Source of the DNA: Lunularia cruciata
Lineage: Eukaryota; Streptophyta; Marchantiopsida; Lunulariales; Lunulariaceae
NCBI GenBank assembly: GCA_948567375.1
Contig: OX419758.1
Coordinates: forward strand, 2,051,001 to 2,115,000
Direction: 5' to 3'
DNA length: 64,000 nucleotides
The notes under the pieces are model-generated. The model had not been told where the DNA came from. It did no database searches and was given only the letters and a program-made list of their open reading frames with translations. Position 1 is the first letter of the stretch. Each line of letters begins with the position of its first letter. A program made the position numbers and the translations under genes. Shown piece by piece: positions 3,716-64,000 of the stretch.

Positions 3716-4440
3716 TTCCAACTCATTGGTAAATGAAAAATACAAGTTTCTTATATCAATATGAGTCAATTGAATAATTGCAAATTGTTCTGTATCAGCT
3801 AATTTCTCTACAATGACGAGGTTTTTGTCTAGGTTGGGTCCACCCATTTGCATTATTACTCACATGTGAATGTGATTCTACACTAGCTGCAACAATGGTC
3901 CATATGACACAACATCAATGCTACCCATGATGCCATCAAAGATAAAGTGCTTGTTATGGCACAAGAGAGTGGATACCTTGCTTGGAAGGAGCATTTGTAT
4001 GCTTTGCACACAACACATGCCAAGGTAGACTTGCATTTGGTTAGAGATAATCAGGTGACCATAGTGGATATTTGATTACACATCCTATGTGATGCAATTT
4101 TGGAGCTAGTGATTACTCATCCCCTTGGATAGTTGCCTAGCGTAGCAACATTATGCAAGGTCTTCAAATATCAAGGTATGAAGCAAGGTCACCTCTTTGT
4201 TCTTCCAACATTGGAGTTATATGGAGCGATGGACATGACATTCAACACATTTGTTAGGTAGTGCATGAGAGATTATCATATTAGATGTTAATGGGTACCC
4301 ATCTCACTCTCATACTTTGTAGGATATTTTAAACAACTTGTTTTCATTGCTCTACAAAGAGCGTTGGTTGGTGCAATCCATGAGAGAGCAATGGTCTAGT
4401 TTGATGGGGTCTTCTCATCCTTTGTATTTTTTATGCAATA
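3716..4440 (+). repeat. Interspersed repeat family R, copy 1
   Basis: Shares long stretches with 17571-18120 and 34640-35330, for example the TGCAACAATGGTCCA run, the GCACAAGAGAGTGGATACC run and the GTGATTACTCATCC run. The three copies are collinear and diverged. No reading frame is conserved between them, so the family's nature is unknown; it may be a non-autonomous element or decayed transposon sequence. Confidence 0.7.
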
Positions 4441-4959: not shown

Positions 4960-5399
4960 GGTAGTTGTGCTCTCTTGGCACCCCTACTCTCCTCTTGTTT
5001 TGTGGTTGTTGATAGTCCAATTTTGGAGACATATGTGACCAAGGTGGAAGAGGGATCCTTTTCTCTTCAGATATTACTATGACATACAAGAGATGGTCTA
5101 TCTATCCTTACATGTATGGGAGGACCTTCTATCCTTTGCTTCACCACTATTAGATTGGATCATAGGTTTGTAGTCTTCCTTGATGGAGCAATAATGTCAA
5201 CATATGCTACATTCTCTTTTAGTTGACTAATCCATTCCTCACGCTACTAGAGCACATCTTTGCTCTTGCTTTGGCAAGTGTGCAAGCTCTTGGATCCTAG
5301 CTTGATTATGCATTAGGACATTCTAGCTCACACCAACTACCTTCTCTACAAGGAGGATGTTCTACCTAGGTTTGGTCCACCTATTTGCATCTTCATTAT
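4960..5399 (+). repeat. Repeat family R, copy 2, left part
   Basis: Aligns with 34200-34650 (for example the TGTGGTTGTTGATAG run and the CTACTAGAGCACATCTT run). It is cut at 5399 by element A and resumes at 17571, so element A inserted into a pre-existing R copy. Confidence 0.75.
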
Positions 5400-7700: not shown

Positions 7701-7852
7701 AAGTCTGTTTTTGCGGTGTGGATCAAGCCAATTGCACAAGGACAATCTGAGGAGAGCCAAGAGCCTCATCAAGTAATGGTTGATCAGATGGTTCAAGAGT
7801 TTGCGGATGTGTTTCTAGATGATCTGCCAAAGGGATTACCTCCAATTGTGGT

Positions 7853-8755
7853 ATGCCCTTCAAGATTGAGTTATTGCCAGGGAGTACTTTAGTGAGTAGA
7901 CCAATCTATCGGCTCTCACCAAAGGAGTTGGAGGAGTTGCAAACAACACTTATGGAGTTGTTGGAGAAGGACTTCATACAACATAATACCTCTCCTTGGG
8001 GAGCACCGGTACTATTTGTTCCAAAGAAGGATAGAGGACTTTGGTTCTGTATTGATTATCATGGGCTCAATAAGCAAACAATGAAGAATGCATATCCCTT
8101 GCCTCAGATTGATGACTTGCTTGATCAATTGAGTGGAACACAATACTTTTCCAAGTTGGATCTTTGTAGCGGCTATTGGCAAATCTCCATTGATAGGGAG
8201 GATGTGAAAAAGATGGTCTTTTGCACAAGGTATGGGCATTTTGAGTGGAGAGTTCTACCTTTCGGGCTCACTAATGCTCCAATAGTCTTCATGGATCAGA
8301 TGCATCGGGTGTTGGATGGACTATTGGACCGATACATGGTGGTGTTCTTGGATGATATCTTGATCTATAGCAAGACAAAGGCAAAACATGTGAAACGCAT
8401 GTGAGAAGTCCTAAGACGACTACGACAATGGAAATTTTACTACAAGAAGTCAAAGTGTACTTTTTGGCAAAAGGAAGTTACCTTCTTGGAGCACAAGATC
8501 TCATCAAGGGGGATCAAGATGGAAGATGAGAAAATCAAGGCCATTATTGATTGGCCTACCCCAAAAGATACTACAAAGGTACGAGCATTTAATGGATTGG
8601 CCAATTTTTACCGATGGTTCATCCATTATTATGCTCATGTAGCTGCACCATTGACTGACCTCTTGGGGAAGGACTCAAGCTTCCAGTGGACTACCAAGCA
8701 CAAAGAAGCGTTCTAGAAGTTGAAACATATGGTGTCTTCAAGGCCCATTCTTCAA
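7853..8755 (+). pseudogene. Reverse transcriptase and start of RNase H of element A
   Basis: Chromovirus-type RT: SPWGAPVLFVPKKDRG, NAYPLPQIDDLLDQL, FSKLDLCSGYWQI and the catalytic VVFLDDILIYS (Asp-Asp codons at 8351-8356). A TGA at 8402 interrupts it. The same frame resumes with the connection domain (IDWPTPKDTTKVRAF, GLANFYRWFIHYYAHVAAPL), has another stop near 8714, and ends after SSRPIL where the nested insertion begins. The missing RNase H continues at about 15270. Confidence 0.9.
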
Positions 8756-9689
8756 TCATTGTCATGGGGAATGTTTGGTCTTGAGGGTGCGTTGGGCACA
8801 TGGCTGCTTGTGCTTAGTAGTCCCTATTGTCTTCTTTTAGAATCTTTCCATTGTTCCGGGGTGGTCGGTCTCGAGGTTGCACTGGCGCCTGGCTGCTTGT
8901 GACTAAATGGCTCTATTTATCACTGGCTCACACCTTGTTATTCAAGGACCTATTTTTGCACTCCTATCTGGTCAATAGTCCTCTTGTTATGGTTCTCAAG
9001 TTGGTCTTGCCCAGAATTATTGTTTGTCCAGGTTCACTAGCTAATATTTGAGCTAGTTAGAGATGGGTTTATATTTAATGGGGCAACAATGAATTTTTGT
9101 CTAACAAGTCATAACCCATAAGCCAATTTCAGATCAGCGCGACTAGATAGTGGGAAGGATCTCCCTATGTAGCATGACTGGGAGCTCTTAGAATAGAGTC
9201 CTCCCTTACACTTTCATAGGTTGATATGTACACATTTAATCATAAAGAACCACAAATACATCACATCACCAGCCTTGCAATTTATAACATTGGAGAGAAA
9301 TACCCAACTCCAGACCAAACAAGGATCACCTAAGTTCCAACTGTCCAAGCAAAACAGAAAGACAGAATCAACCAAGACCCATTCCCTATCTCTTACAATC
9401 CATTGCCTTCCTGTCTTGTTGCAGCTGTCTCATGAGCCACCTTAGGTCCTCCCTCTGTCCGGTCTCTCCTTCGGGAGTTCTCCTCTATCCTGCCTCTCCT
9501 TCAAGAGTTCTCCTCTGCCAACACTCTCCACAATCAAATCTAGCATAAACTTGAAATTTCATTTCCTGTCAAAGGACAAGTTCCTCCTCTCGAACTCATT
9601 CTACAACCTCTAAAGGACCAAGCCAATCTAATTTGAATTTTCTTCCTCTCTTCTCATAGTGTCGTCGGGAAAATGATTCATGGAGAGTT

Positions 9690-12250
<2,561 letters not shown>

Positions 12251-23504: not shown

Positions 23505-26500
23505 ATGGGGAAACTTCCGGTTTTCTTTGGCAAGGATGGAGAAGATGTGGAGGCCTTTGTGAGAGACTTCAAGAGAGCTTGCATAGGAAACAATGAGAGG
23601 AGGAAGAATGAGTGGGCCTCATTATTACCAGATTTCTTTGAGGATGCAGCACTTACATGGTATGAGTCAGAATACCAAAAGAGAGAGAGGAGAGAGGGGG
23701 AAGAGGAGTCTTGGGAGACTTTGACTTCAGCACTCATTGAGAACTTTCTTCCTGATGAGAGTTATGAGAGATTGATGAGTGAGGTTACATTTCTCAAGCA
23801 AGGAGATGGAGAGAAAGTGAGAGTCTATGTGGAAAGAGTGGAAAAATTGGAGTCCAGATTTCGCATAGTGTTGAGGAAGGGTGGGGATGATGTGGAGACT
23901 ACAATGATTGGCATAGGGGCCATGCTCACCAAGAATTTTGTGGGAGGATTGAGACCACAAATTAGAAGCAAGGTGAGATATGAGAAACCTTCTTCCAAGG
24001 TTGAAGCTATCAAGATCGCAATTCGTATGGAGGAGAGTTTGGAAGGGGATGAAAGTGATTTGGTGGTGAAGGAGGTTGTGCATCCTCCTCAAGGCTACAA
24101 GTATGGTGGAACTTCTGATACTTTGGTGACAAGGGTTGCACCACAAGTAGTAGTTGCTCCAGTTCTTGCACCTCCACCAAAAGATCCACTCCAAACCATC
24201 ACAGAACAACTTGCGGATCTCAAGATCAATGTGGTGCAATTATGGGAGAAGAGAGAGGTGGATCAGAATGTAGGGAGAGGGCCTAGGAGTTATGGAAACC
24301 ATCCATATAGAGGAGGCCAACCAGCCAACAATTTCAATGATAGAAATTGTTTTGGTTGTGGGGGAAGAGGCCATATCCAAAGGAATTGCCCAAATTCCAC
24401 TTACCATGGAGGAAGGGGTTATGAGGGAGCCAATAGAGGGAAAGAGGGAGGTAGTGAAACCCAAGTGGCTCCTAATCCCAACAAAGGTAAGGGGATAGCA
24501 TCCATAGATGTGGTTGAGAGCAAGTATGAGAAGGGAGAGTGCTCAAACTCCAAGGGTCCTAATTTGGAGCTTTTGGCACAAGAGAAGAAGAGAGCTCGTT
24601 TTGCAGAGGATGTTCACTCTTCTCAAGGATTTACTTCAAGCAAGGATACTCCTATGTCTACTAGGAGCACTCGCACCTCAACACCATCAACAACAAAGAC
24701 TCCAAGGAAGAAGTTGGGGATGGAGGACTTCTTGATCTCCAAGCAACAATGGAACTACAATGTGTTGGAGGATGTTGGTAGTCACAAGGCTAACATCACA
24801 GTGGGCCAATTAATTGCTTTGAACCCTACCTTGAGAAAGGAGCTTAGAGGTGGTTTGAGTTCTACAAGGAGCAAGAAGAAGAAGAAGGCAAAAGTTCCAA
24901 TATCAATGGGGGTGGTGGATGCCAAGCCAGCACCATGGGAAGCTTGTGAATATGCCTCCAAGATTGATGTGAGAGTGAATGGTCACAACATCAAGGATGC
25001 ATTGGTTGATGGAGGATCAGCAGTGAATGCCATGTCAGAAAGGTTGATGAAGAAGTTGGGTATGATACCCTCAAGAGCTTCAACATTTGTGGTGAGCATG
25101 GCAAACAAGCAACAAGTTCGACCAGTAGGAGTGATGGATAAGGTGGTAGTTTCAGTTATGGGGGTTCAAAATCTCATGACTTTCCAAGTCTTGAAGGATT
25201 CAAGCTATGACTTACTTCTTGGGAGGCCATGGTTGAGAGCAGCACGCACAACTGATCGATGGCACAAAGGGTACTTAAGGATTGGGCCATCAAACCATAG
25301 AGTCACTGTTCCTGTGACTAACACCACCAACACCTCACATTCAGATACCCCATCTTCTGATTATTGGGAATCTGATTCTGAAGGAGGAGCTTCAGGTGTG
25401 GACACAAGCATGGAAGAGGAGACTTCCACGGAGGAGGATGAATCTGAATCTGATTCAGATGTGTATCCTTTGTGTGCTATGGATTTTGCACCTAAGCCAG
25501 AGGTTTTGAAGGACCCAGATAAATCACCATTGACACTTGAGGAGGTAGAGAGAAGGTTATCTACCCTCAAGTATGGCCCAAATGTTACCAAGGAGGAGAA
25601 GGTGAGATTTGAGGAGATTTTCCGCAAGTTCATCCATGTGTTTGCTTTTAGTTACAAGGATTTGAAGGAAGTCACCTTGGAGGAGCACAAGATAGAGGTG
25701 GAGTCACATGCAAGACCAATCCGCCAAAAGCAACGTCGCATTAGCCCACCAATATCTTTGGTTGTGAAGGAGGAGATTGATAAGCTCAAGGAGGCTGGAT
25801 TTATCTTTGAGGTGGAGAATTCAGAATGGGTGTCTCCAATTGTCATTGTGAAGAAAAAGAATGGCAAGCTTCGGGTATGTGTGGATTACAAGAAGCTCAA
25901 TGCTGTTACCAAGAAGGACTACTACCCATTGCCATTCATTGATGAGATCTTGGAGGAGGTTGCAGGTCATGAGAGGTATAGTTTTGGAGATGGTTATAGT
26001 GGATATAACCAAATCAAGATTGCACCAGAGCATCAACAACTCACCACATTCACCACACCTTGGGGAACTTACGCTTTCAAGGTCATGCCTTTTGGGCTTT
26101 GCAATGCTCCAGCCACATTCCAACGGTTCATGAACAAGGTATTTGAACCTTTCATTGGGAAATTTGTGAGAGATTTCATTGATGACTTTTGTGTCTATGG
26201 GAGCAAGGAGGAGCACTTTGAGCACCTAATCAAAGTCTTGCAACGCTTGGATGAGGCAAATGCATCACTCAACCCAGAGAAGTGCATTTTTGGATGTGAA
26301 GAAGGTCTACTTTTGGGGCACATCATCTCCAAGGATGGAATAGCAGTTGATCCTGAGAAGGTGAGGAAAATCTCAGACCTTCCATTCCCTTCAAGCTTGA
26401 CAAAGTTACGCCAATTCTTGGGAATGGTTGGGTACTATAGGAGGTTCATCTTCTCATTTTCCAACAAGGCTTATGCATTGACCATCTACATGAAGAAGGG

Positions 26501-28331
26501 TGTAGATTACATGGTGATTTTGGAAGACAAGGAGGCTCTCAAAGCTTTTGAGGAGCTCAAGCAATCCCTTGTTGTAGCTCCAATTCTTGCTAAACCTGAT
26601 TGGAGTAAGCCTTTCATCCTCTACACTGATGCTTCTAATGTAGCTATAGGATGCACTCTTAGTCAATTAGACCAAGATGGGCATGATCATCCAATAGCTT
26701 ATGCTAGTAGGCAGATGGTTTCAGCAGAGAAGAACTACTCTGTCACAGAGAGAGAAGGGTTGGCAGTGATCTTTGGTCTCAAGAAGTTTAGACACTACTT
26801 GATTGGAGGGAAAGCCACAATTGTCACGGATCACAAGGCTTTGAAGTACATCTTCAACAAGCCTAATGTTGAAGGGAGACTAGCAAGGTGGATGATTCTC
26901 TTGTCTGAGTATGACTACACAATTGAGGATAGGCCAGGAAAGAAACATGCAAATGCTGATTTGTTATCTAGAGCCTATGATCATGATGGAGATGAGCCAG
27001 TAGATGATTCCTTCCCGGATGAGGAGCTCATGACAATCTCAGTCACTCAAGAGGTTCCAATGGAGTACAAGGAGATTGTGGATTTTGTGACAAGAGGTAA
27101 CTATCCAGAAGGGATGCATGCTAGGGAGAGGAAGGCCCTTGCAGCAAGATCTAGACCTTACACAATGGTGGATGATATTCTTTTTCACCAAGGAGCAGAT
27201 GGTCTACTTCGAAGAGCAGTGGGTAAGGAAGAGTCTATCCTACTCATAAAGGAGTTTCATGAAGGTTTAGTATGTGGAGGACACTTTGCAGGAAAGGTGA
27301 CTGCTTTCAAGATTCTAGATGCAGGTTACCATTGGAGAGGGATTTTCAAGGATTGTCTTGATTATTGCAAAACTTGTCATGTTTGTCAAGCTTTTGCTAG
27401 AAAGTCTACATCCACTCCACCACTTAGATCAATTCCATTGCTAGGACCCTTTGAGAAGTGGGGAATTGATTTTGTAGGACCTCTCAATAGAACCCCAAGG
27501 AACAATCGGTACATTGTGGTAGTTACTGATTACCTTACCAAGTGGGTTGAGGCTAGACCATTGAGGGACAAGAATGAAGATGAAGTGGGTAGATTTCTTT
27601 ATGAACGCATTATCACTAGGTTTGGATGCCCTTTGGAGTTGGTTTCTGATAGAGGAGGAGAGTTTACAGGAAGCATTACTACAGCCATGCTACGACATTT
27701 CTCTATCACACATCGAGTAACTACATCCTATAAGCCAAATTCCAATGGCTTGGCAGAGAGAACCAATCAGACCTTGTGCATGATGTTGGCCAAAGATGCA
27801 GAAATGGAGGGGGCTAAACATCATTGGGACAAGAGGATTCATGCAGTTTTGTGGGAGTATAGGACAACCATGAAGACTTCCACTGGATATTCTCCATTCC
27901 AATTGGTGTATGGTATTGAGTCTACCTTACCTATTCACTTTGATCTTCCTACCTTCCAAAGCATTCATAGGAGATTGAAGAAAGCACAAGGAAGTGATGC
28001 AGAGAAGTCAAGGAAGGATCAACTCATGGAGTTGGAAGAGGCAAGAGCAGTTGCTATGGTTCGAGTGGAGCAAGCCCAAAGGAAACAAAAGGAGAGCTAT
28101 GACAAGAGGCAAGGCAAGAAGAAGGTGGAGCCTTTCAAAGAAGGTGATTGGGTAATGTTGTTTGATTCCATTCGATTCAAGAGAGTACAAAAGAAGTTTT
28201 TGCCTAAGTACTTTGGACCTTTCATAGTAGAGAAGGTGTGGGGAAATTACACTTATGATCTCAAGGAGTTGGGAGGAAGACACTTTGATAGGATTAACCA
28301 TGATAAGTTGAAGATGTACCATAGAAGGTAG
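23505..28331 (+). CDS. Intact Gag-Pol polyprotein, 1608 aa
   Basis: Single uninterrupted frame, ATG at 23505 and TAG at 28329. It supplies all enzymes for reverse transcription in virus-like particles and integration into the genome. Order by residue: Gag (about 1-260), CCHC knuckle CFGCGGRGHIQRNC (282-295), aspartic protease VDGGSAVNAM (Asp 502; the DGG form is common in Tat/Athila elements), RT with FGDGYSGYNQI (Asp 829) and FIDDFCVYG (Asp-Asp 893-894), RNase H (Asp 1042 in YTDASN, Asp 1109 in VTDHKAL), integrase with HHCC finger (His 1252, His 1260, then CKTCHVC) and the D,D35,E triad Asp 1322, Asp 1382, Glu 1418. The C-terminus (KYFGPFIVEKVWG to YHRR) carries no chromodomain. All visible catalytic residues are present, so the element may be active. 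Confidence 0.97.
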   Translation: MGKLPVFFGKDGEDVEAFVRDFKRACIGNNERRKNEWASLLPDFFEDAALTWYESEYQKRERREGEEESWETLTSALIENFLPDESYERLMSEVTFLKQGDGEKVRVYVERVEKLESRFRIVLRKGGDDVETTMIGIGAMLTKNFVGGLRPQIRSKVRYEKPSSKVEAIKIAIRMEESLEGDESDLVVKEVVHPPQGYKYGGTSDTLVTRVAPQVVVAPVLAPPPKDPLQTITEQLADLKINVVQLWEKREVDQNVGRGPRSYGNHPYRGGQPANNFNDRNCFGCGGRGHIQRNCPNSTYHGGRGYEGANRGKEGGSETQVAPNPNKGKGIASIDVVESKYEKGECSNSKGPNLELLAQEKKRARFAEDVHSSQGFTSSKDTPMSTRSTRTSTPSTTKTPRKKLGMEDFLISKQQWNYNVLEDVGSHKANITVGQLIALNPTLRKELRGGLSSTRSKKKKKAKVPISMGVVDAKPAPWEACEYASKIDVRVNGHNIKDALVDGGSAVNAMSERLMKKLGMIPSRASTFVVSMANKQQVRPVGVMDKVVVSVMGVQNLMTFQVLKDSSYDLLLGRPWLRAARTTDRWHKGYLRIGPSNHRVTVPVTNTTNTSHSDTPSSDYWESDSEGGASGVDTSMEEETSTEEDESESDSDVYPLCAMDFAPKPEVLKDPDKSPLTLEEVERRLSTLKYGPNVTKEEKVRFEEIFRKFIHVFAFSYKDLKEVTLEEHKIEVESHARPIRQKQRRISPPISLVVKEEIDKLKEAGFIFEVENSEWVSPIVIVKKKNGKLRVCVDYKKLNAVTKKDYYPLPFIDEILEEVAGHERYSFGDGYSGYNQIKIAPEHQQLTTFTTPWGTYAFKVMPFGLCNAPATFQRFMNKVFEPFIGKFVRDFIDDFCVYGSKEEHFEHLIKVLQRLDEANASLNPEKCIFGCEEGLLLGHIISKDGIAVDPEKVRKISDLPFPSSLTKLRQFLGMVGYYRRFIFSFSNKAYALTIYMKKGVDYMVILEDKEALKAFEELKQSLVVAPILAKPDWSKPFILYTDASNVAIGCTLSQLDQDGHDHPIAYASRQMVSAEKNYSVTEREGLAVIFGLKKFRHYLIGGKATIVTDHKALKYIFNKPNVEGRLARWMILLSEYDYTIEDRPGKKHANADLLSRAYDHDGDEPVDDSFPDEELMTISVTQEVPMEYKEIVDFVTRGNYPEGMHARERKALAARSRPYTMVDDILFHQGADGLLRRAVGKEESILLIKEFHEGLVCGGHFAGKVTAFKILDAGYHWRGIFKDCLDYCKTCHVCQAFARKSTSTPPLRSIPLLGPFEKWGIDFVGPLNRTPRNNRYIVVVTDYLTKWVEARPLRDKNEDEVGRFLYERIITRFGCPLELVSDRGGEFTGSITTAMLRHFSITHRVTTSYKPNSNGLAERTNQTLCMMLAKDAEMEGAKHHWDKRIHAVLWEYRTTMKTSTGYSPFQLVYGIESTLPIHFDLPTFQSIHRRLKKAQGSDAEKSRKDQLMELEEARAVAMVRVEQAQRKQKESYDKRQGKKKVEPFKEGDWVMLFDSIRFKRVQKKFLPKYFGPFIVEKVWGNYTYDLKELGGRHFDRINHDKLKMYHRR

Positions 28332-51760: not shown

Positions 51761-54525
51761 AATATAACTATGGCTGCCAACACTACCACTCCAGCATGCA
51801 AGCAAGCTAGCTTCATGATAATGTGCCTAGAGAGGCAATTCAAGCACATGCTAAGAGTGATGGATTGAGTAGGCAAGGTATTCTTGGAACATAGCCGATG
51901 ACTACTAGTAAGAGTGATCTTCTTGGGGTACATCTAGGTGAACAAGGTCTATTTGGGATGCACCCTTGGTCTACTTGGGATGAAACTAGAGGATATTTGG
52001 AGTTTGTAGCAAGCATAGAGGGAGTTTTTTGCTCTAATATTGGAGACTCTAGTAGTTTGGAGCATGACAATATCTCTCCCAAAGGCCCATTGTAGTAGCC
52101 AATCAATGTGACTTCCACTTCTATATCAATTACAAAGGATACATGGGAGAGCCAAACATTGGACCCAAGCTTACAAGAGAAGAAAGATGTATAGTTTGGA
52201 GGTTCTTGAGGAGCTACATGAGTCGTTTTGTCTTCAATATGAAGGATTTGGGTGTTATGAAAGGACTTGGTATTTGGATTGAGTTGACTTGTGATACACC
52301 AATCTTTTGACGTCTCTACAAGTACAATGATATGCAAAGACCTTGATTCAAAGTCAAAGACCTCTTTGAGGTTGGTTTGGTGGATACATCATATGGAGAA
52401 TATGCTTCAACTACAATGATGCCAGCCAATGATATGCATGGCAACTACACAAATAGGCAGATGTGTGGAAATTATTTTCCTCTCAACCAATGGACTAGAA
52501 CAATATGCATGGCAACTACAAGGATATGTGGATGTGTGGAGATTACTGTCATATCAACCAACAAACTATGCTGATTGGTATGCCATGCCTACATTAGAGG
52601 ACATCTTTGATCCAATTGGGCATGCAAAGGTCTTCAATACTTTGGATCTTTGAGTAGGATATCATTAGTTGCCGATTAAGGAGGAGGATAAGTCCAAGAT
52701 AACATTTTGGGCTATTGATCCTCCCGGTAAGGATGTATTGCATCAATGGTGGTTCTTACCATTTGGTTTAAAGAACACTCTTGTCAAGTTCTAGAGGGTC
52801 ATGGATAGGATCTAAGTAGGATTGGATTTTGCTTGATGCTATATTGATGACATTTTGGTCTACAACACTACAATGGAGGAGCATGAGAAACATTTTTTGA
52901 AGGTGTTTGAGAGATTGAGATCTCATGGACTCAAATTACATCTTAGGGAGTGCAGATTTTTCCATGAGCAGGTTGAGTATTTAGGTCACATGATTCACCT
53001 TGGTGGACTTGGTGTTCAATAGACCAAGGTGGAAGCTCTTGCTTATATTTCTTAGCCTATAGATGTGAGCAGGCGTAAGCATTCCTTGGGTTGGCAAACT
53101 TTTATCTTTGATATATTAGAGGATTCAGCACTACGGCTAAAGCTGACCAAGCTTACATAAGAGTGGGGTTGGGGAGATGAGCAAGAGAGAGCTTTCTTGG
53201 AGCTCAAGGAAAGGTTGACATTGGCTCCTATTTTGAGGAGATTGATCAAAGGATGACCATTTCAGGTTCATACTGATTGGAGTACATTGGAGCTTGGAGC
53301 AGTGCTCACCCAACATGATGATGAGGAGAAGGAGTTTATGGTGGCCTATGCTAGTTGCTAAAATAATTGAAAGGAGGTGAAATATAGTTCATATGAGAGA
53401 GAGAATGCTTGGCAATAGTATGGGCAGCAAGACATTGTGGATTTTACCTATTTGATAACCCTTTACCCTCATCATTGATCATCAACCACCAAAGTGGTTG
53501 ATGGAGTCTAACAAGCATGCATGAAAGTTTGCATGATGGGCTCTAGTTTTACAAGAGTATGATTTGACAATTATTCACAAACCTAGAGTGGCAAATTGTG
53601 ATGATGATGGGTTGAGTAGAAATCCATGTACTAGCTAGCAAGATCAGACTAAAGCACATTGGTATGGTAAGACAAATGAAGAGATAATGCCAAATTAGCA
53701 TGCATTTTCTTTTCTATGTATTTTTTAAGGCTTCAATGGTATCTCTCTTAATACAGACAAGAGGAGTTGTTGAGGTCTTAGATCTATAGAGTGGAGATGG
53801 TGGTATAGAGCAGCAAGACATTCATGAGGATGTCTTGGTGATGGACTATCTTTGCACCAATGTTGTGGGTGGCAAAATTGGTGCCAAGGAGAAAGACCGT
53901 GTCCTTCAACAAGCCAAGTGGTTCAGATTGGAGTGTAGACACTTCTGTATGTGTGAGAGGATGGTAGAGTGCAAGTAGTACCTCTTCCATCTTAGAGATC
54001 ACAATTGGTGCGTCATGCTCATGAGGAGCTTGGACACTTTGGAGTAAAGAAGACATATAGCTTACTCCAAATTCATTATTGGTGGTGCAATATGCAAACA
54101 TGTGTTTAGTAGTTTTTTGCTAGATGCATGGTTTGTGATCAAGTTAGAGCATCATTTAATGCTCTTATGTCTTAAATACACCCACTACATATTATGGGTT
54201 GGATTACTGCTAGATTTTGGACTTTGTTGGACCTTTACCATTGAATATGGGACATCATTGGTATGTTTTGGTTATGGTGGAGCACTTCTCGAAGTGGATT
54301 GAGTTGGTGCAACTTTCTGATAAGTCTAGTGAAAGGACACCTTATTCATTCCTAGATTAAGTTCTTAATGATTTTGGTGCACATACTAAGGTTTTGATTA
54401 ATCAAGGTATAGAGTCCTTGGGGGAGTTTCAGGTCTTGGTGTGACAAAGCCTTGATTGATCATCATATTACTTCTTGAGATCACCAGGAGGCTAGATGGC
54501 TCAACATAGAGAGTGGTTAGATGAC

Positions 54526-55076
54526 TATAATAATATGGAATTTATAGAGGAGGTAATCAAGACTAAGGAAGTAACAAATAGGCCAAATTAACCAAGAGTT
54601 ATAAGAATATTCTAGAAGCATCTAGGAAGTTACTTGGTACCTTCCAAGTATTGAGTAGTATGCATGCCAAGTGGTGAGTTCTAGAAAGAAGTTTCTTGGG
54701 AAGCTTCTCATCTAGCTTAGCTTGCAAACCAAGTAGATAGCATCTAGAAAGAAGTTTCTTGAAAAGCTTCCAACTAGCTTAGCTAGCATGCCAAGTAGGT
54801 GGTTTCTGGGAGAAAGCTTCTTGGGAAGCATCCAACTAGCTTAGCTTGCATGCCATACAAAAAACTTCTAAAAGGAAGCTTCTTGATTAGCTTGGCTTGC
54901 ACTCCATGAAGACGGCTTTTAGATAGCTTCTTGAGAAGCTTCTCAAGAGCCTTGCATGCTCCTTTTAAATACCAAAGCCCAAGCCCATGCTAGGCATTTA
55001 GAGTTTCTCCCATTTAGGTGTCGCAATATTCCTCTCCAATCTTCCATTCTCCTATTTCTTCCCTTGGTCTTTTACA
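54526..55076 (+). mobile_element. Solo LTR of the element A family inside copy C
   Basis: 551 bp starting TATAATAATATGG and ending TTTTACA, with the AGCTTCTTGAGAAGCTTC-type repeats of the A LTR. It interrupts the integrase coding region between AGAGTGGTTAG and TGAAGAAAGG, which are contiguous in copy D. The flanking ATGAC (54521-54525) and ATGAT (55077-55081) fit a 5-bp target duplication with one change. Recombination between two LTRs is the usual origin. Confidence 0.8.
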
Positions 55077-55652
55077 ATGATGAAGAAAGGATTTCATAAA
55101 TTGGGTTTGTAGAGAGGCCACTTGGGAGATTGGAATCTCTAGTTACCTTGGTTGGCCATGGGTTATTAGTTCAGCCACCAAGCCTCCTTAGCATCCTTCT
55201 TTATGGACAAGATCCAGATTTACCTATAGCCATTTATCTTGATGCTAGTATAGTTTTGGACTTGGATGATCTAGACGTATAAGTAAGTGCATGTTCTCAA
55301 CATGCATGTTTGGAAAGTGATGTTTATGGGCTTTGAGAACTCATCTATTGCTTGGCATAGGGATACCTTATGCTATGCTACTATTTGAGGAGGTGGTTAT
55401 AGACCCTCTATCTATCAATTTCATCCAAGTGACTATGTATATTTACAATAGACTACACTAATGACACTTGACATTATGATGGGCCACACTATCTTGAGAG
55501 TGTGTGAGGTTTTGCCCTCTGGAGTCCTCATGTTGGAAGGACATGATGGTGTTGTTTGGAAGGATCATGTGTACAATTGTGCGCCAAGCCCCCTTCCAAA
55601 CATTGGTGGCATTATGGACCCAAGCTTGGTAGTTGTATGTATAGGCTTGCAG

Positions 55653-55787
55653 AGCATATTATGAGGCTCTTTTGGTGGAGCTGCTTCTATGTTGGTGTGT
55701 GATAGCTATTCAAGAGGATGGCATATGGAATGTTTGACACCTCCGCTCATGGCGGTTCCTCAAGGACAATGGCTATGTCCTAGATAT
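55653..55787 (+). pseudogene. PHD-type zinc finger at the end of copy C Pol, degenerate
   Basis: MLVCDSYSRGWHMECLTPPL and WLCPRY follow the integrase C-terminus. The spacing fits Cys-His-Cys-Cys of a PHD finger. The first Cys pair is lost (one Cys reads Ser, and the second position is a TGA) and two later Cys read Tyr. The ancestral finger is better kept in copy D (58376-58508). Confidence 0.75.
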
Positions 55788-55960
55788 ACTTGACCTATTG
55801 CTCGTTCTCCTTGATGTGATATAGATTGCAGATATGCAACTAACAATGGGGCTTGATAGCACTTGGTGTCTTGATCTTTGCACACCATAGGGCATATCAC
55901 ATACTTAGAGTAGATGACTATTTGGAGTTAGAGTGACATAATTGTAAGCTAGGAGACGAC

Positions 55961-56613
55961 TGTGGCACTTTAGAGTTTATGTATGACTTATGTGTGATCT
56001 GTGTTTCTATAGTGTGTGATGTTGACAACAATGTATGTTGTGTAGCAATGTATATATACACAACAACTATCATGATATTTGTAGTGCCAAAGCTAGTTTG
56101 TTCGGATGTTGGATTGGTAGAGCTGGCAGGCATAGTTATATCGATAGTCGCTTGGTGGTTGCCAGATTTCATGTTAGGGCTAAAAGTCACAAGGTGGGAT
56201 CCACCATCACTTGCACCATTCACACTATCATGTGGGATGTCAATAGTGCCATTAGGGTTGAGACCTAGGTCAAGCAAAGGGGTATACCTTTGAAGTGCAA
56301 CTCTAGAGAGCTCACTTCTTTGATGTTGAGCCTATGAGTTCTTGGCTATGGTGGATAGAGGCACACATGCGTCATGTGGATTCTCTCAACTAGAGTGGGT
56401 GTGGCTTGATTGTAATCAGTGCCTGATTGTTGGTAGAGTGTTGAGTGAAGGAGATCAAGTTCTTATTTGAGTTGAGTGCAATTTGATTGAACAAGTTTAT
56501 CTGATAATTGTAGCAATTTAGAATTTATGTATGACTTATGTGTGAGTTGTACTTCTATAGTGTGTAATGTTGATAGTGATGTATGTTGTGTAGCATTTTA
56601 TATATGCATAACA
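55961..56613 (+). repeat. 3' LTR of copy C
   Basis: 653 bp, TGTGGCACTTTAGAG to ATGCATAACA. It contains a direct repeat of about 105 bp at its two ends (55963-56068 and 56513-56613). It aligns with 57551-58200 read on minus. Confidence 0.8.
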
Positions 56614-57365: not shown

Positions 57366-57550
57366 TGTAATACTCCAAGGGTAGGAGACCTAAAGGGAAA
57401 CACACCATGAGAAACACACAATTTCACACTCAAACCTCCGATGCCCCATAGGAGCACCTTCTCTTTATTATATAGACAAAGAGGATCTCCTCCAAGGAAG
57501 CTCCACCATAGGGTTAGGCACATAGATAGATGATATGTTAACAAGCTCTA
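57366..57550 (-). repeat. Q-family LTR fragment
   Basis: Read on minus it is the 3' part of Q (GGTGCTCC...GGGGCATC...GAGTATTACA). It inserted into S and is itself cut by copy D at 57551. Confidence 0.65.
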
Positions 57551-58200
57551 TGTCGTGCGTATATACATTGCTACACAACATACATTGCTGTCAACATCAT
57601 ACACTATAGAAGCACAACTCACACATAAGTCATACATAGACTCTAAAGTGTCACAATAATCAAATTGCTTACCACTCTCAACTCAACTCAACTCAGATCA
57701 GTACTTGATTTGTCACTCTATAAACTGCCAACAACTAGGCATTGATTACAGTCAAGCCACACCCACTCAAGCATAGAGAATCCAGGTGACACTCGCTGGC
57801 CTTTGTCCACCATAGCCAAGAACTCAAAGGCTCAACATTAGAGAAGTGAGCTCTCTGGAGCTCACTTCAAAACTATACCCCTGGATGCAAGCTAGCTCTA
57901 AAACCCTAATGGCCCCACTGATGGCACACTCGACGGTGCAAATGGTGCAAAGTGACGGTGGGCCTCACCGTGAAGTCAGTACCCCAAACATGAAATCTGA
58001 CCGTCGGAAAGTAGTCTCAAAGAAACTTGAGACTACTATCACTAGAACTCCAGTGTTTGAGCATCTAGATGCGGCACTACAAATGGCATGACAGTTGTCA
58101 TGCATATATACATTGCTACGCAACATACATTGATGTCAACATCATACACTATAGAAGCACAACTCACATATAAGTCATACATAGACTCTAAAGTGCCACA
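57551..58200 (-). repeat. 3' LTR of copy D
   Basis: 650 bp; on minus TGTGGCACTTTAGAG to GCACGACA. Terminal direct repeats of about 105 bp (58200-58095 and 57658-57551), as in copy C. Confidence 0.8.
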
Positions 58201-58375
58201 ATCGCCTCCCTAGCTGGTGGTTAGGTCCCTCTAACTCCAGATAGCCATCTACTCTAAGTATATGGTATACCCTCTAATGGGTAAAGATTAGGAGGCCGGG
58301 TGCTATGGAGCCCCATTGTTAGTCGCTTGTCTACAATCTATACCATATAAAGAATGAATTAATTATAGGTCAAGT

Positions 58376-58508
58376 ACATCTAGGACATAACCACTGTCCC
58401 TGAAGAACCACCATGAGGGGAGGAGTCATACATGCCATATGCCATCCTCTCAAACAACAATCACACTACCATAGTAGCAGCTCCACCAGAAGAGCCACAT
58501 AACATACA
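58376..58508 (-). pseudogene. PHD finger at the C-terminus of copy D Pol
   Basis: On minus: CMLCGSSGGAATMVV, then after a single-base deletion CDCCLRGWHMAC, then WLCPRC. The pattern C-x2-C-x11-C-x2-C-x4-H-x2-C-(x14)-C-x2-C with the conserved Trp before the last Cys pair is that of a C4HC3 PHD finger, a domain that commonly binds the histone H3 tail. It follows REVLPSGVLVLEGHDGIVW (an SH3-like integrase C-terminal segment), where chromoviruses carry a chromodomain. Ligand unknown. Confidence 0.8.
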
Positions 58509-59099
58509 CCTCAAGCATGCACGTACAAGTGCCAAGCTTAGGTCCATAGTACCATCAATTTTTGGAAGGTGGCATGGCGCACAATTGCGCACATGATCCT
58601 TCCAAACAATACCATCATGTCCTTCTAACACAAGGACTCCAGATGGCAAAACCTCACGCACTCTCAAAATAGTGCGGCCTGTAGAAACATCAAGTGTTGT
58701 TGGTGTTGTCTACTATAGATATACATAGTCGCTTGGATGAAATCAATGGATCGAGGGCCTATAACCTCCTCCTCAAATGGTAGCATAGCGTAAAGTATCT
58801 CTATGTTGAGCAATGGCTAAGTTCTCAAAGGCCATCACATCACTCTCCAAAAGATCTCTGCCCATTGAGAACATGCGCTCATCCATACACGGAGTCATCC
58901 AAGTCCAAAACAACAGTAGCATCTTGACGAATAGCTGTAGATAAATCTGGATCTCGTCCATAGAGTAGAAAGTATGGAGAGAAGGATGCTAAGGAGGCTT
59001 GCCGGCTAAACCGATAGCCCATGGCCAACAAGGTAATTGGAGATCCCAATCTCCCAAGTGGCCTCTTTGCAAACCATAATTTTGCAATCCTCTCTTCAC

Positions 59100-59890
59100 C
59101 GTCTAAACCACTCTCTCTGCTAAGCCATTTGCCTCAGGGTGATCTTGGGATGTAGTACAATGATCAATCAAAGCCTTGTCACACAAGACCTGAAACTCCC
59201 CCAGGGAGTTTAAACCGTCTAAACCACTCTCTCTGTTAAGCCATCTGCCTCAGGGTGATCTCGGGATGTAGTACAATGATCAATCAAAGCATTGTCACAC
59301 AAGACCTGAAACTCTATACCCTGATCAGTCAAAACCTCAACTGGTGCACCAAAATGACTAAGAACTCAATCCAAGAATGAGTAAGCTGTCCCTTCACTAG
59401 ACTTGTCAAGAAGTGCCACCAACTCAATCTATTTGGAGAAGTGCTCCACCATCACCAAAACATACCGATGATGTCTCATAGTCAACAAGGTCCAGCAAAG
59501 TCCAAACTCCAATGATAACCCAATCCCATGATAGGTAATGGGTGTAATTGTGGCGTAGGAGCATTGAATGATGCTCTAACTCGGTCACAAACCACACATC
59601 TAAAAACAAACTGTTGTACCTTGGTCTGCATACCGCGCCACCAATAATGACTCTGGAGTAAGTTATATGTACGCTTTACTCCAAAATGTCCTAGCTCCTC
59701 ATGAGCATGACGGACCAACTGTGGTCTTTGTGATGGAAATGGTACTACTTGCATTCTACCATCCTCCCATACATGCAAAAGGTGTCTACCCTCCAATCTG
59801 AACCGTCTGGCTCGCTGAAGAACACGGTCTCTCTCCTTGGCCCCAACTATGCCACTCACAACACCAGTGCAAAGATAGTCTATCACTAAG
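59100..59890 (-). pseudogene. Integrase of copy D
   Basis: Zinc region VRHAHEELGHFGVKRTYNLL, HYWWRG, FRCVVCDRVRA (HHCC) on 59886-59482, then core WSLDFAGP (first Asp), VEVLTDQGIEF (second Asp) and a LTER-type segment (Glu). Broken by a frameshift, stops and the tandem duplication. Confidence 0.85.
59101..59332 (-). repeat. 116-bp tandem duplication in the copy D integrase core
   Basis: Copies 59101-59216 and 59217-59332, over 90% alike by eye, covering the LCDNALIDH...SRDHPEADGL region. It disrupts the integrase active site. Confidence 0.85.
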
Positions 59891-60259
59891 ACATCATCAT
59901 GAATGTCTTGCTAAACTGTACCCATATCTTCACTCTCTAGATTTGTGACCTCAATAACTCCTCCTATATGCACTGAGAGAGATACCACCAAAGCCTTTGC
60001 AAATATACACAAAAAAGCCAATGCATGGCAACCTGGCACCATCTCCTCATCTGTCCCACCATGTCAACGTGCTCTGGTCTGATCTTGCTGGTTGGGACAT
60101 GGGTTTCTACTCAACCCATCTGCATCATGGTTCACCACTCCAGGTCTGTGAACAACCATGAAATCATACTCCTGTAAAATCAGAGCCCATCGTGCAAGCT
60201 TCCCTGAAAGCTTGTCGGACTCCATCAACCACTTCAGCGGCTGATGATCGTGATGAGAA

Positions 60260-61350
60260 TGAAGAGGTTACCAAATAGGTAACATCAGACATGTACTACT
60301 GCCCAAACTGCTGCTAAACACTCTTCCTCATATGAACTATACTTTGCCTCCACTGAATTGTTGAAGCGACTAGCATAAGCCACCACAAACTCCTTCTCCT
60401 CATCATCATGCTGGGTGAGCACCACTCCAAGCCCTAACATACTCCAATCAATGTGAACCTGAAATGGTCGTCCCTTGATTGGTCTCCTCAAAATAGGAAC
60501 AGATATCAACCTCTCCTTGAGCTTTACAAAAGCTCTCTCTTGCTCATCTCCCCAACACCACTCCTGTGTAAGCTTGGTCAGCTTTGTCAAGGCCTTGGCA
60601 ATGGCACTAAATCCTCTAACATAGCGGCAGTAGAAGTTTGCCAACCCAAGGAATGCTCGCACTCTGCTCACATCCGTAGGCCAAGGAATACGTGCAATAG
60701 CCTCCACCTTGGTCTGCTGAACACCAAGTCCTCCGGGGTAGATAGTGTGACCCAAATACTCAACCTGCTCATGGAAGAACCTACACTTCCCAGGATGTAA
60801 TTTGAGTTCATGAGATCTCAACCTCTCAAACACCTCCAACAACTATCTCTCATGCTCCTCCACAATAGTACTATAAACCAAAATGTCATCAATATAGCAC
60901 CGAGCAAAATCCAATCCAGCTAGGATCCTATACATGACCCTTTGGAACTCAGCAGGAGCGTTCTTTAACCCAAATGGTAAGAACCTCCACTAATATAACA
61001 CATCCTTGCCGTGAGGATCAATAGCCCAAAATGTTGTCTTGGACTTATCCTCCTCCCTGATTGGCAACTGATGATATCACGCTCGAAGATCCAAAGTACT
61101 GAAGACCTTTGCATGCCCAATCGCATCAAAAATCTTCTCCGGTGTAGGCATGGCATACCGATCAGCCCTGGTCTGTCGGTTGATAAGAGGGTAATCTCTA
61201 CACATCTGCCTATCTATATAGTTACCATGCATATCCTTCTTGGCTGGCATCATTGTCGCTGATGTATACTCTCTATGTGAAATCTCCACTAAACCAGCCT
61301 CAAAAAGATCACTACTTTGGCTCTGAATCAATGTCCTCTCCATATCACTA
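60260..61350 (-). pseudogene. RT and RNase H of copy D
   Basis: YAMPTPEKIFDAIGHAKVFSTLDLRA (first Asp), [29 protein letters not shown], then [10 protein letters not shown] (Asp-Asp at 60890-60885). The connection domain is IPWPTDVSRVRAFLGLANFY and RNase H is QVHIDWSMLGLGVVLTQHDDEEKEF with YSSYEEECLAAVWAV. A 185-codon stretch (60842-60285) is still open. It continues toward RNase H end signatures (PLKWLMESDKL) near 60200. Confidence 0.88.
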
Positions 61351-61899
61351 TATCAATAAGGACGTCGGAAAACTAGTGTGTCGCTAGTCAGCTCAATCCA
61401 TATACTAGGTCCCTTTAGAGCACCCAAAATCCTTCATATTGAATGCAAAACAACTCGTGTGACTCCTCAAGAACCTCCAAACCCTCCGTCTTTCCTCTCT
61501 AGTAAGCTTGGGTCCAAGATCTGGCCCCCAAGTATCCTCGTAATTGTAGTAGGAGTGGAAGACGTACTAACTGGCTGCTACATTGGGCCGTTGGGAGCAA
61601 TAGTGTCATGCTCCCAACCTCTATGTGAAAAATTCCATCCACTCTGGCTGCAAGCTCCATATGTCCTCTAGCTACATCCCATGTGGACCAAGGGTGTAAT
61701 CCAAGTAGCCCACGCTCACTTGGATGGACTCCAAGTAGACAACTCTCCCTAGTAGCTACTAGATGTGTCCCAAGGATACCATGTCCACTCGGTCCATTGC
61801 CCCCAGCATGTGCCTGAATTGTCTCGATAGGCACAAGGCTCACAAGTGTCCGAGTGGTGATGCCTATCAAGTGCATCCTATGCTGCTTTGCCAAGCCAA

Positions 61900-62848
61900 G
61901 GCTCACAATCCATGTCAAACAGTTCAGGTCCATAGCCTGACCTAACACTTGACGCTTGGATGCCTCTAACATTGCTGGAACAACGATAATACCAGTGCAA
62001 AAACCCATCACTCGCTCTTTGTCATCAGAGTTGGGCTCTACCAACTACTGTAATTGTGAGTCCCAAACAAGTCCAGGTCCTCCCTCTTGAAAAGCATGAG
62101 AGCTTGGGAAACTCATGAGTGTGGGAAATGCAGCTCTAGGCTGTCCAACTAGGTTCACCACTGCCATAGGTGACCTATCAGCCACTACCACTGTCTGAGA
62201 CTGACGCCCAACATCCAAGATATCATCAACAAGGATATGGTCAAGTTGTTGAATCCCATCATAAGTGCACTATAGAACCTCTCTGGGTAAGAGGTTCGTC
62301 CACCAAAGACAAAGACGATGAACCCGTGATCCCACTCTGGCTACATCTAACAATACAGCAAGTCCCATCCAAGAATGGACCTGATGTGTACTCGCCACCA
62401 CTCTAGTGCGAGAATCACCCATCAAAGGAACGTTCTCCAAAAGGTAAGCTCGAGAAACAGACTAATTAACCTAGAGATATCGTAGTATCCGTAACATCTC
62501 CCAAAACACACTTGAACAAGGATCCTAAAGACTCAAACCGTGGCCCGCATGTGTATGTCCCTAATATGGCCATCCATTAATCACCAAGTGAATAGGCCCA
62601 TGTCTCTCTAGCTCATGCGCCCCTAGTAAGGAAATGTCTCCTGGTAAGGCCTTATGGTAACCTCTGATTGCTGACATCGGTAATAACTCCAGATATCGAT
62701 AGGCCAAGTGTACCACATGATGTAGAGAGACTTACCTAGCAATCTCATCTCTCTCTACATACAAGTACCTCTGTACTTGTATACCCACCTGTAACACTAC
62801 AACTAGTCTGGTGCTGATCCCACCAAACAACTCCAATAGGCATATCCC
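61900..62848 (-). pseudogene. C5 cytosine-DNA methyltransferase domain inside Pol
   Basis: One continuous minus-strand frame, about 316 codons, with at least five stops. Motif I: GICLLELFGGIST (62848-62810; AdoMet loop). A middle segment gives LPGDISLLGAHELERHGPI. Motif IV: INGWPY-stop-GHTHAGHG at 62575-62546; the family has P-C-Q, so the catalytic Cys reads Tyr (62566-62564) and Gln reads TAG. Motif VI: LLENVPLMGD (ENV at 62437-62429). Motif VIII-like: GSRVHRLCLWWTNL. Motifs IX-X: ERVMGFCTG and RQVLGQAMDLNCLTWI (about 62015-61905). It is placed between protease and RT. Active relatives would methylate cytosines in DNA with S-adenosylmethionine. The order of motifs makes the family call strong; this copy cannot be active. 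Confidence 0.88.
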
Positions 62849-63479
62849 CTCTACTGGATACTACCAAGCAATGAGTGTGGTATCCAAAGGTGTCAAAGCA
62901 ATTGCCTGTAGAGGCTCATCCTCACACTCATCTCTTGATGGTACGAAGACTCTACTCCAAGCCTACTGCACCAACTGATCTGCATGCTACTGCAATGCCT
63001 CCTCTGAACTCCACCATGGAACATCCAAGGTGGATGGAACAATCCCACTCGTACTCTAAAGGCGAGTGATCTCCTCTGGTACTGGAGTATCCTCTGCATG
63101 GGCGTTCCCCTCCAACAAGTCACCAAGCCAAGTAACTGCACTACTGAAAGCTAAAATTGATGCTGCCATAGTCGCGGACTGTAGTGAGCCAAGACTGCCA
63201 CTACTGAAGCGTACTGGTAGGCGACATACCGGTCCCTCACCAAACTGTCAACCAAGTCTATAAGAGGTTGTCTCCTCCCAATAGTCAATGCTGAAACCCA
63301 TGGGGTATAACATTACTTCCCCAACTAGCACATCATATGACTTAGCTATCGTTGCAATAGCTTGAGCTCTCACCACCAAGCTATCAGTCAGATGACCAGG
63401 CTAAACCAAGACAACAAGCTCTCCACGTCTAATGTATTGTGTCGAACCACCACCTAGAGATGTCTAGATTTGAAATGGA

Positions 63480-63720
63480 CACCTCTCCACATCGGTCTTC
63501 TATAACTCCAAATTGACAATTGTAGCTTTCCCCAACATAAGAGGCTGCGCACCAGAGTCTAACAAGACTCTCTATGGTGTATAGACCTTCCTTGAAGGTC
63601 CCACCAAATGGAAAATCCCCCTCTGGTTATCCAATAGGACAACACCAGGTGTAAATTGCGCTCTCTCAAAGGCCGGTCTAGCTGGCAACTCCTCCAGTCT
63701 AGCCGGTGCTGCCTACCATA
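63480..63720 (-). pseudogene. Protease of copy D
   Basis: VLLDSGAQPLMLG with Asp-Ser-Gly at 63559-63551, the retropepsin active site, preceded by RGIFHLVGPSRKVYTP and followed by a stop after NLEL. It lies upstream of the methyltransferase. Confidence 0.75.
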
Positions 63721-64000
63721 AACCACTGGTCGTTGAACGGATCCCACGCTCCTCAACCAAGTCAGCTCTACTACCAACCACCTCTGCTCTAGTAGTAGGA
63801 ACTGCACCATCCCTACTCTCACACAACGTGGCAGCCAACAAGAATATTGGGGCTGGGTCAACTCCCAATGTAAACATATCACTGGCCAAAAACAAAGGAT
63901 GCCGCATAATCAGCTGAGCCGCCCCCAACATCATGCTAGACTCTGTCTGTGTAGTAGCAGGTGGTTGACTAGCAGGTAGTCCATCATGTACTCCATCACC
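63721..64000 (-). pseudogene. Gag-protease linker of copy D (cut by the window edge)
   Basis: Minus frame from 63934: MMLGAAQLIMRHPLFLASDMF to STTSGLW and a stop. No zinc knuckle seen within the window; the rest of Gag lies beyond base 64000. Confidence 0.5.

Follow-up and report, generated by a model that had tools for sequence, protein, structure and literature searches.

The 64,000-nt stretch of Lunularia cruciata DNA analysed here (contig OX419758.1; below, the window, whose numbering is used throughout) contains element A, a decayed copy of a retrotransposon family that carries a DNMT3-type C5-cytosine methyltransferase (DNMT) domain within its Gag-Pol coding frame. Element A lies on the minus strand (−). 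The family is laid out as Gag, protease (PR), and DNMT, a conserved in-frame UAG-CAG, and then reverse transcriptase (RT), RNase H, integrase, and a PHD finger. We regard the identity of the DNMT and the architecture of the element as practically certain.

The DNMT frame of element A (62860-61856, −) could be aligned in full, 335 of 335 residues, with its counterpart in a longer-frame copy from the same genome (84.8% identity). Along this frame motif I, a damaged motif IV, ENV, an H-R segment, ERVMGF, and GQAMDLN follow in that order, which bears out the original prediction of a single frame with ordered C5-methyltransferase motifs between protease and RT. The motif-IV catalytic cysteine is absent, as the same prediction had noted, and with this loss and seven in-frame stops the window copy is dead. 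Pfam detected 0 families at E ≤ 1 in the window DNMT frame, scanned in pieces and also with X at the stops, because this copy is too decayed. The DNMT of a longer-frame copy passed PF00145 (E = 5.2e-7, 29.8 bits vs a cut-off of 22), so the suggested methylase-profile check failed on the window copy and succeeded on its relative. A phmmer search of PDB chains matched the window DNMT to DNMT3A (E = 3.2e-6), and 64 homologues came up at E ≤ 1e-3, the best at 2.3e-140; PF00145 is present in 34 of the 64. At the level of sequence comparison, chance resemblance of the window frame to a DNMT is excluded. Both in sequence and in fold, the solved structures closest to the domain belong to DNMT3, and the family profile scored 1.1e-23 for DNMT3A and about 8e-6 for DNMT2. 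No match was found by tblastn against plasmids, and viral contigs probed with protein P0066 gave two pattern matches and no confirmed one, hence no hint of a viral source there.

The genome searched comprised 565,766,749 bases. All 150 scored genome candidates, drawn from 12,840 first-look candidates, matched at E ≤ 1.4e-76. A 24-mer over the catalytic motif of the DNMT occurred at 3,789 places (≤2 mismatches; 0 for the reversed-pattern control) and an RT 24-mer at 5,185 places (control 0). The first 17.9 Mb of contig C1 hold 41 exact DNMT sites, and 31 of them are followed, on the same strand, by an exact RT site at a spacing of 1.81–1.84 kb in 30 cases and 2.29 kb in one. With thousands of copies in the genome, the DNMT is a conserved part of the family and not an insertion in one copy, the outcome that would have counted against the prediction. 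If all 3,789 copies were full length (about 10 kb), which is unlikely, they would amount to about 38 Mb, or about 7% of the genome. The larger genome of L. cruciata has been attributed to Ty3/Gypsy bursts in the text of PMC9985172. Annotated relatives of the family were found in Marchantia polymorpha, Calypogeia fissa, Riccia sorocarpa, four Sphagnum species, and metagenome contigs.

The coding order was read from ten genome copies picked for long frames (the longer-frame copies). In all ten, one frame spans the protease and the DNMT up to the stop, and RT-RNase H continues in the same frame; an integrase-region frame of at least 140 residues, again in the same frame, was listed for nine. Several of these copies have further breaks, and none of the ten is open over its whole length. 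The stop after the DNMT is TAG followed by CAG CCA in 10/10, and a reading by hand showed TAG also in 29 of the 30 loci L001-L030. The tobamovirus-type readthrough context is UAG-CAR-YYA. Tobacco mosaic virus has a leaky UAG (described in the text of PMC8708638), and by its sequence context the UAG of the present family is probably leaky as well; expression of the downstream part by readthrough is the likely outcome.

In a longer-frame copy, Pfam scored RVT_1 (2.4e-32), RT_RNaseH (1.4e-36), and rve (9.9e-13). The order RT-RNase H-integrase, with H2C2 and the rve DDE core, is that of a Ty3/Gypsy pol. No tyrosine recombinase family was detected at E ≤ 0.01 in the three frames scanned of this copy, where rve was found instead. 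A PHD finger (E = 6.5e-11) is the last domain of its Pol. Nineteen of the 24 most distant relatives (P0089-P0112) have rve, and 16 of these 19 also showed PF00628. These pol domains, together with the DNMT3A match of the window copy and PF00145 in the longer-frame copy, sustain the predicted placement of a DNMT inside a Gypsy-type element of a land plant.

All ten longer-frame copies have a stop-free DNMT, one of them without the motif-IV proline. The ratio of nonsynonymous to synonymous polymorphism (pN/pS) was 0.38 for the DNMT and 0.35 for RT-RNase H among these ten, values that are lowered somewhat by the selection of copies for long frames. By this measure, purifying selection on the DNMT is similar to that on RT. 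A protease-region pN/pS of 0.84 was discarded, as at least one copy was out of register (lowest identity 0.385).

For the origin of the DNMT, 52 domains spanning most of the query length were kept from 112 proteins, and nine near-duplicates were removed before a 72-row tree was built. In this quick tree all 43 element DNMTs fell on one side of a branch (SH-aLRT 100). A 35-row tree contained 18 of the 52 domains with ten plant rows, one animal row, and six of the 12 metagenome rows. Neither tree included DNMT1, CMT, or DRM; the metagenome outgroup rows in the trees are of unverified taxa. All 18 element DNMTs formed one clade (100/100), and a branch with elements and plant DNMT3 on one side reached only 70/53, which neither establishes nor rejects a place beside plant DNMT3 as a whole. 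Grouping with the liverwort host DNMT3 was rejected (p-AU 0.005), and with it capture from the liverwort's own DNMT3. The host DNMT3 gene itself (L053/L054, C7 at about 31.99 Mb) has several DNMT exons and DUF3444, with PCQ at motif IV, vs the PCN of DNMT3A. It sits in the host clade, separate from the element clade, is nearest to the DNMT3b of Marchantia paleacea and M. polymorpha (58%), and groups with Marchantia and Riccia (SH-aLRT 99), apart from Calypogeia. By this placement the window comes from a liverwort, probably one of the Marchantiopsida.

The element DNMT clade has two deep parts. The DNMT precedes RT in all seven bryophyte proteins with both domains (Marchantia, Riccia, Sphagnum) and follows RT in 17 of 18 metagenome proteins with both, the exception being P0112. 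Pfam places it after RNase H and ahead of integrase in P0089, P0092, and P0100. The metagenome polyproteins P0089-P0111 hold a second architecture, with the DNMT after RT in 17 proteins having both domains. At motif IV, GWECQD replaces GWPCQ in 12 of 53 aligned rows, all metagenome; the proline is kept in most other rows. As judged from the DNMT trees, the sampled element DNMTs are of single origin, older than the split of the two domain orders, and the DNMT either moved within Pol or was taken up twice from near relatives. The tree of the bryophyte-type elements did not match that of the hosts, L. cruciata copies lying outside Calypogeia plus Marchantia (weak forks), so old subfamilies or horizontal transfer are possible. 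An RT tree of 22 rows contained two DNMT-less outgroups only, both on long branches, and did not decide between one capture and several.

The ends of the element were unusual for a Gypsy-type element. The window element and seven of ten longer-frame copies have repeats in the order A1 (about 449 bp), interior, B1 (about 107 bp), A2, B2; in the three remaining longer-frame copies these A/B pairs were not seen. The ends of these eight elements are therefore A1 and B2 rather than the two direct long terminal repeats (LTRs) of Ty3/Gypsy elements, and the split direct repeats are a DIRS-like trait. The element starts with TGTC and finishes with GACA, and 4-bp target duplications, read by hand from the element ends, flank 8/8 elements with both ends. 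An ordinary LTR element is ruled out by this repeat order together with the target duplications. A purine-rich tract was present just upstream of B1 in 7/7 longer-frame copies with split repeats, and ATCAGAG just after A1 in six of them, the seventh having one change; ATCAGAG is similar to an initiator-Met primer site. The B-A junction reads GACA-NN-TGTC in five of seven copies and has one base changed in the other two. On the classical reading of both sites, the cDNA would be BA-int-BA and the inserted A-int-BA-B a circular permutation of it, opened at the B-A junction. Such a permutation suggests a circular or joined intermediate that would be cut by integrase at this junction. In copy c7 (L044/L045), A2 extends about 91 bp farther than elsewhere, taking in more of the leader ahead of B2, which indicates that the A2-B2 junction is not fixed.

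Element A measures 10,778 bp in total and extends past the window to 68328 in window numbering (L031:4328). Its parts are as follows.

57551..64000 (−): element A, part within the window; ends TGTC/GACA, 4-bp target duplication TAGA, paralogous empty site
57547..57550 (no strand): target site duplication TAGA, 3′ end; its partner is at 68329-68332, beyond the window
57551..57657 (−): terminal repeat B2, 94% identical to B1
57657..58093 (−): repeat A2, 87% identical to A1 at 67889-68328
58096..58202 (−): B1, the internal copy of the B repeat
58373..58450 (−): PHD finger, distal part, decayed; by tblastn 92% to the integrase-PHD frame of the copy with PHD E = 6.5e-11
58464..59661 (−): integrase region with H2C2 and rve core, broken; by similarity to a family copy, H2C2 in the Pfam scan
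60079..61539 (−): reverse transcriptase and RNase H, broken; by Pfam and comparison with family copies
61578..61580 (−): the family UAG stop between Gag-PR-DNMT and RT, here out of the DNMT frame
61856..62860 (−): C5-cytosine methyltransferase (DNMT) domain, seven in-frame stops, catalytic cysteine lost
62879..63748 (−): aspartic-protease-like region upstream of the DNMT, containing DSGAQP; 84.8% to its counterpart in a longer-frame copy

For the aspartic-protease-like region, Pfam PF13650 was found in the relatives P0021, P0081, and P0084. Element A was inserted into repeat X, copies of which lie at L031 2910-3644, 4329-4889, and 8530-9271 and at 57409-57548 of the window. One uninterrupted copy of repeat X, in the neighbourhood at 72530-73245, shows the empty target of element A, and a further copy is nested within element A. 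Element B (51822-56613, +), a badly decayed relative, retains RT, integrase, PHD, and B1-A2-B2 repeats. No DNMT match was found in it at E < 1e-6, and it is possibly truncated or DNMT-less. Two further Ty3-type RT regions (25566-27932, + and 7823-8794, +) are 36% and 34% identical to the RT of the DNMT family, and no DNMT match was found near them in the window at E < 1e-6. The GC skew at 10001-12000 was +0.605 over 2 kb, the top of the window's 32 bins.

The A repeats differ by 13% in the window element and by 0.6–2.8% in seven other copies, which indicates that the window copy is old and the others recent. Compared with three longer-frame copies, the window copy carried C-to-T/G-to-A changes at 22–23% of CG, 18–19% of CHG, and 4% of CHH sites. 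Changes in this direction numbered 201–204 vs 38–55 in the reverse; for two longer-frame copies set against each other, the numbers were 60 vs 42. Repeat X, which matches the element only through the copy nested inside, has the same CG/CHG preference. As repeat X decays alike, the decay cannot serve to test the enzyme that the element encodes, and self-methylation read from the mutation pattern was rejected as evidence. Judging by these changes, the elements look methylated and silenced as other repeats do.

The overall explanation we prefer, with moderate confidence, is a Gag-level DNMT that would methylate the element's own DNA. Coded ahead of the UAG stop, the DNMT would be produced along with Gag, at a higher level than RT and integrase, and be packed into particles. 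Gag-level coding and conservation like that of RT fit best with a role in the particle on the element's own DNA, and we put this substrate slightly ahead of all others combined. Inside the particle the DNMT may methylate the double-stranded cDNA, after which a circular or end-joined form would be inserted by the DDE integrase at the GACA/TGTC junction, the PHD finger perhaps steering insertion to particular histone marks. The new copies, methylated in advance, would pass as resident heterochromatin. Possible benefits are camouflage, a shield against deamination or nucleases, and self-restraint; options of this kind are listed in the main text of PMC5890265, self-restraint included. We choose camouflage tentatively, at somewhat less than even chances.

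Several observations weigh against this explanation, besides the influence of copy choice on pN/pS. An exact DNMT site was found upstream of only 31 of 100 listed exact RT sites, and the DNMT 24-mer has fewer places in the genome than the RT 24-mer (3,789 vs 5,185), which indicates that part of the family has lost or mutated its DNMT. Among the ten longer-frame copies, the R-x-R is changed in two, the motif-IV proline is absent from one, and three have one stop in RT-RNase H. A yeast test of the Klebsormidium enzyme was negative, a result called inconclusive by its authors (main text of PMC5890265).

The decay of the window copy, with its CG and CHG excess over CHH, is a sign of dense silencing methylation, and it would suit a DNMT whose marks on new insertions, or on the genome at large, bring on rapid silencing by the host and so limit damage or superinfection by sister copies. 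The element would then gain by sparing its host, an option that the 2018 authors also list (PMC5890265, main text). However, another repeat of the region shows the same bias, and a family at no fewer than 3,789 places speaks against strong restraint; we consider such self-restraint unlikely. Less probable still is that the DNMT acts elsewhere (on element RNA, the primer tRNA, or host genes in trans) or is a non-catalytic structural part of Gag. The text of the 2018 paper shows no activity for the Gypsy-borne DNMT (PMC5890265), and the metagenome relatives with GWECQD at motif IV point the same way. The liverwort copies, however, keep motifs IV, VI, VIII, and X as in DNA-acting DNMT3, and the family profile scores DNMT3A far above DNMT2.

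Separate captures by the bryophyte family, the metagenome families, and the Klebsormidium element would account for the opposite domain orders of bryophyte and metagenome proteins; moreover, the K. nitens sequence is outside the trees, and the RT tree has its two DNMT-less outgroups only. Against this, element DNMTs of both orders form one clade in both DNMT trees, the PHD ends Pol in both types, and DIRS-type repeats are stated for K. nitens in the main text of PMC5890265. We therefore find separate captures improbable. A functionless host DNMT fragment, trapped by accident in a single old element, would agree with the dead window copy. This reading is refuted by copies in other liverwort genera, and with thousands of copies in the same place and frame under purifying selection its probability is close to nil. 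Going further, one lineage older than land plants might combine a DNMT writer with a PHD reader, produce the writer at Gag level by coding it before a leaky UAG, have its split-repeat circle inserted by a DDE integrase, and write its own epigenetic state before insertion, so becoming a major component of the liverwort genome, within a clade that has reported Gypsy bursts. As a whole we hold this to be a speculative and rather unlikely combination.

As a rule DNMTs silence transposons; here the roles are turned round, with a transposon maintaining a DNMT under selection. The evidence in the main text of PMC5890265 came from dinoflagellates and one alga. Presence in liverworts and Sphagnum, including Marchantia polymorpha, brings the question to genetically tractable land plants, and it also means that bryophyte gene annotations and DNMT counts can include transposon genes. 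The split direct repeats with a DDE integrase are a second, separate puzzle, one of replication.

DIRS/PAT-type elements have the order A1-interior-B1-A2-B2 and a tyrosine recombinase, and are not known to make a target duplication. The liverwort family has the same repeat order, but instead carries rve, sites like a primer-binding site and a polypurine tract, and 4-bp duplications. Chromoviruses are Ty3 elements with an integrase chromodomain; they likewise bear a chromatin-reading module at the integrase C-terminus, where in the liverwort family a PHD finger replaces the chromodomain. SymbioDIRS-Dnmt3 and SymbioLINE-Dnmt of Symbiodinium (PMC5890265, main text) are also retrotransposon-borne DNMTs, but on tyrosine-recombinase DIRS or LINE backbones, compared with the DDE (rve) integrase and 4-bp target duplications of the liverwort family. 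The plant DNMT3 host genes described in the text of Yaari et al. 2019 (PMC6453930) share the DNMT3-type catalytic domain and differ by DUF3444.

The closest system is KnitGypsy-Dnmt3 of Klebsormidium nitens, described with Gypsy domains, DIRS-type repeats, and Ka/Ks < 0.2 (de Mendoza et al. 2018, main text of PMC5890265). Both have an unrearranged DNMT3-type domain in a Gypsy-type polyprotein, purifying selection, and DIRS-like repeats alongside the Gypsy domain set. Compared with it, the liverwort family has land-plant hosts, thousands of copies, a DNMT upstream of UAG, and a PHD at the end of Pol; the term 'PHD' occurs 0 times in the main text of PMC5890265 (figures and supplements excluded). 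The name K. nitens was not among the 64 + 45 homologue matches; judged from the published description, the liverwort family appears to resemble KnitGypsy-Dnmt3 in the features compared. No report of a land-plant DNMT retrotransposon was found in the texts searched, supplements excluded (including PMC5890265, PMC6453930, PMC6338049, PMC5784723, PMC12344493, PMC8616336, PMC10952607, and PMC9985172). As far as these texts go, the land-plant hosts, the copy number, the in-frame stop after the DNMT, the PHD finger, the 4-bp duplications around split repeats, and the second domain order are new.
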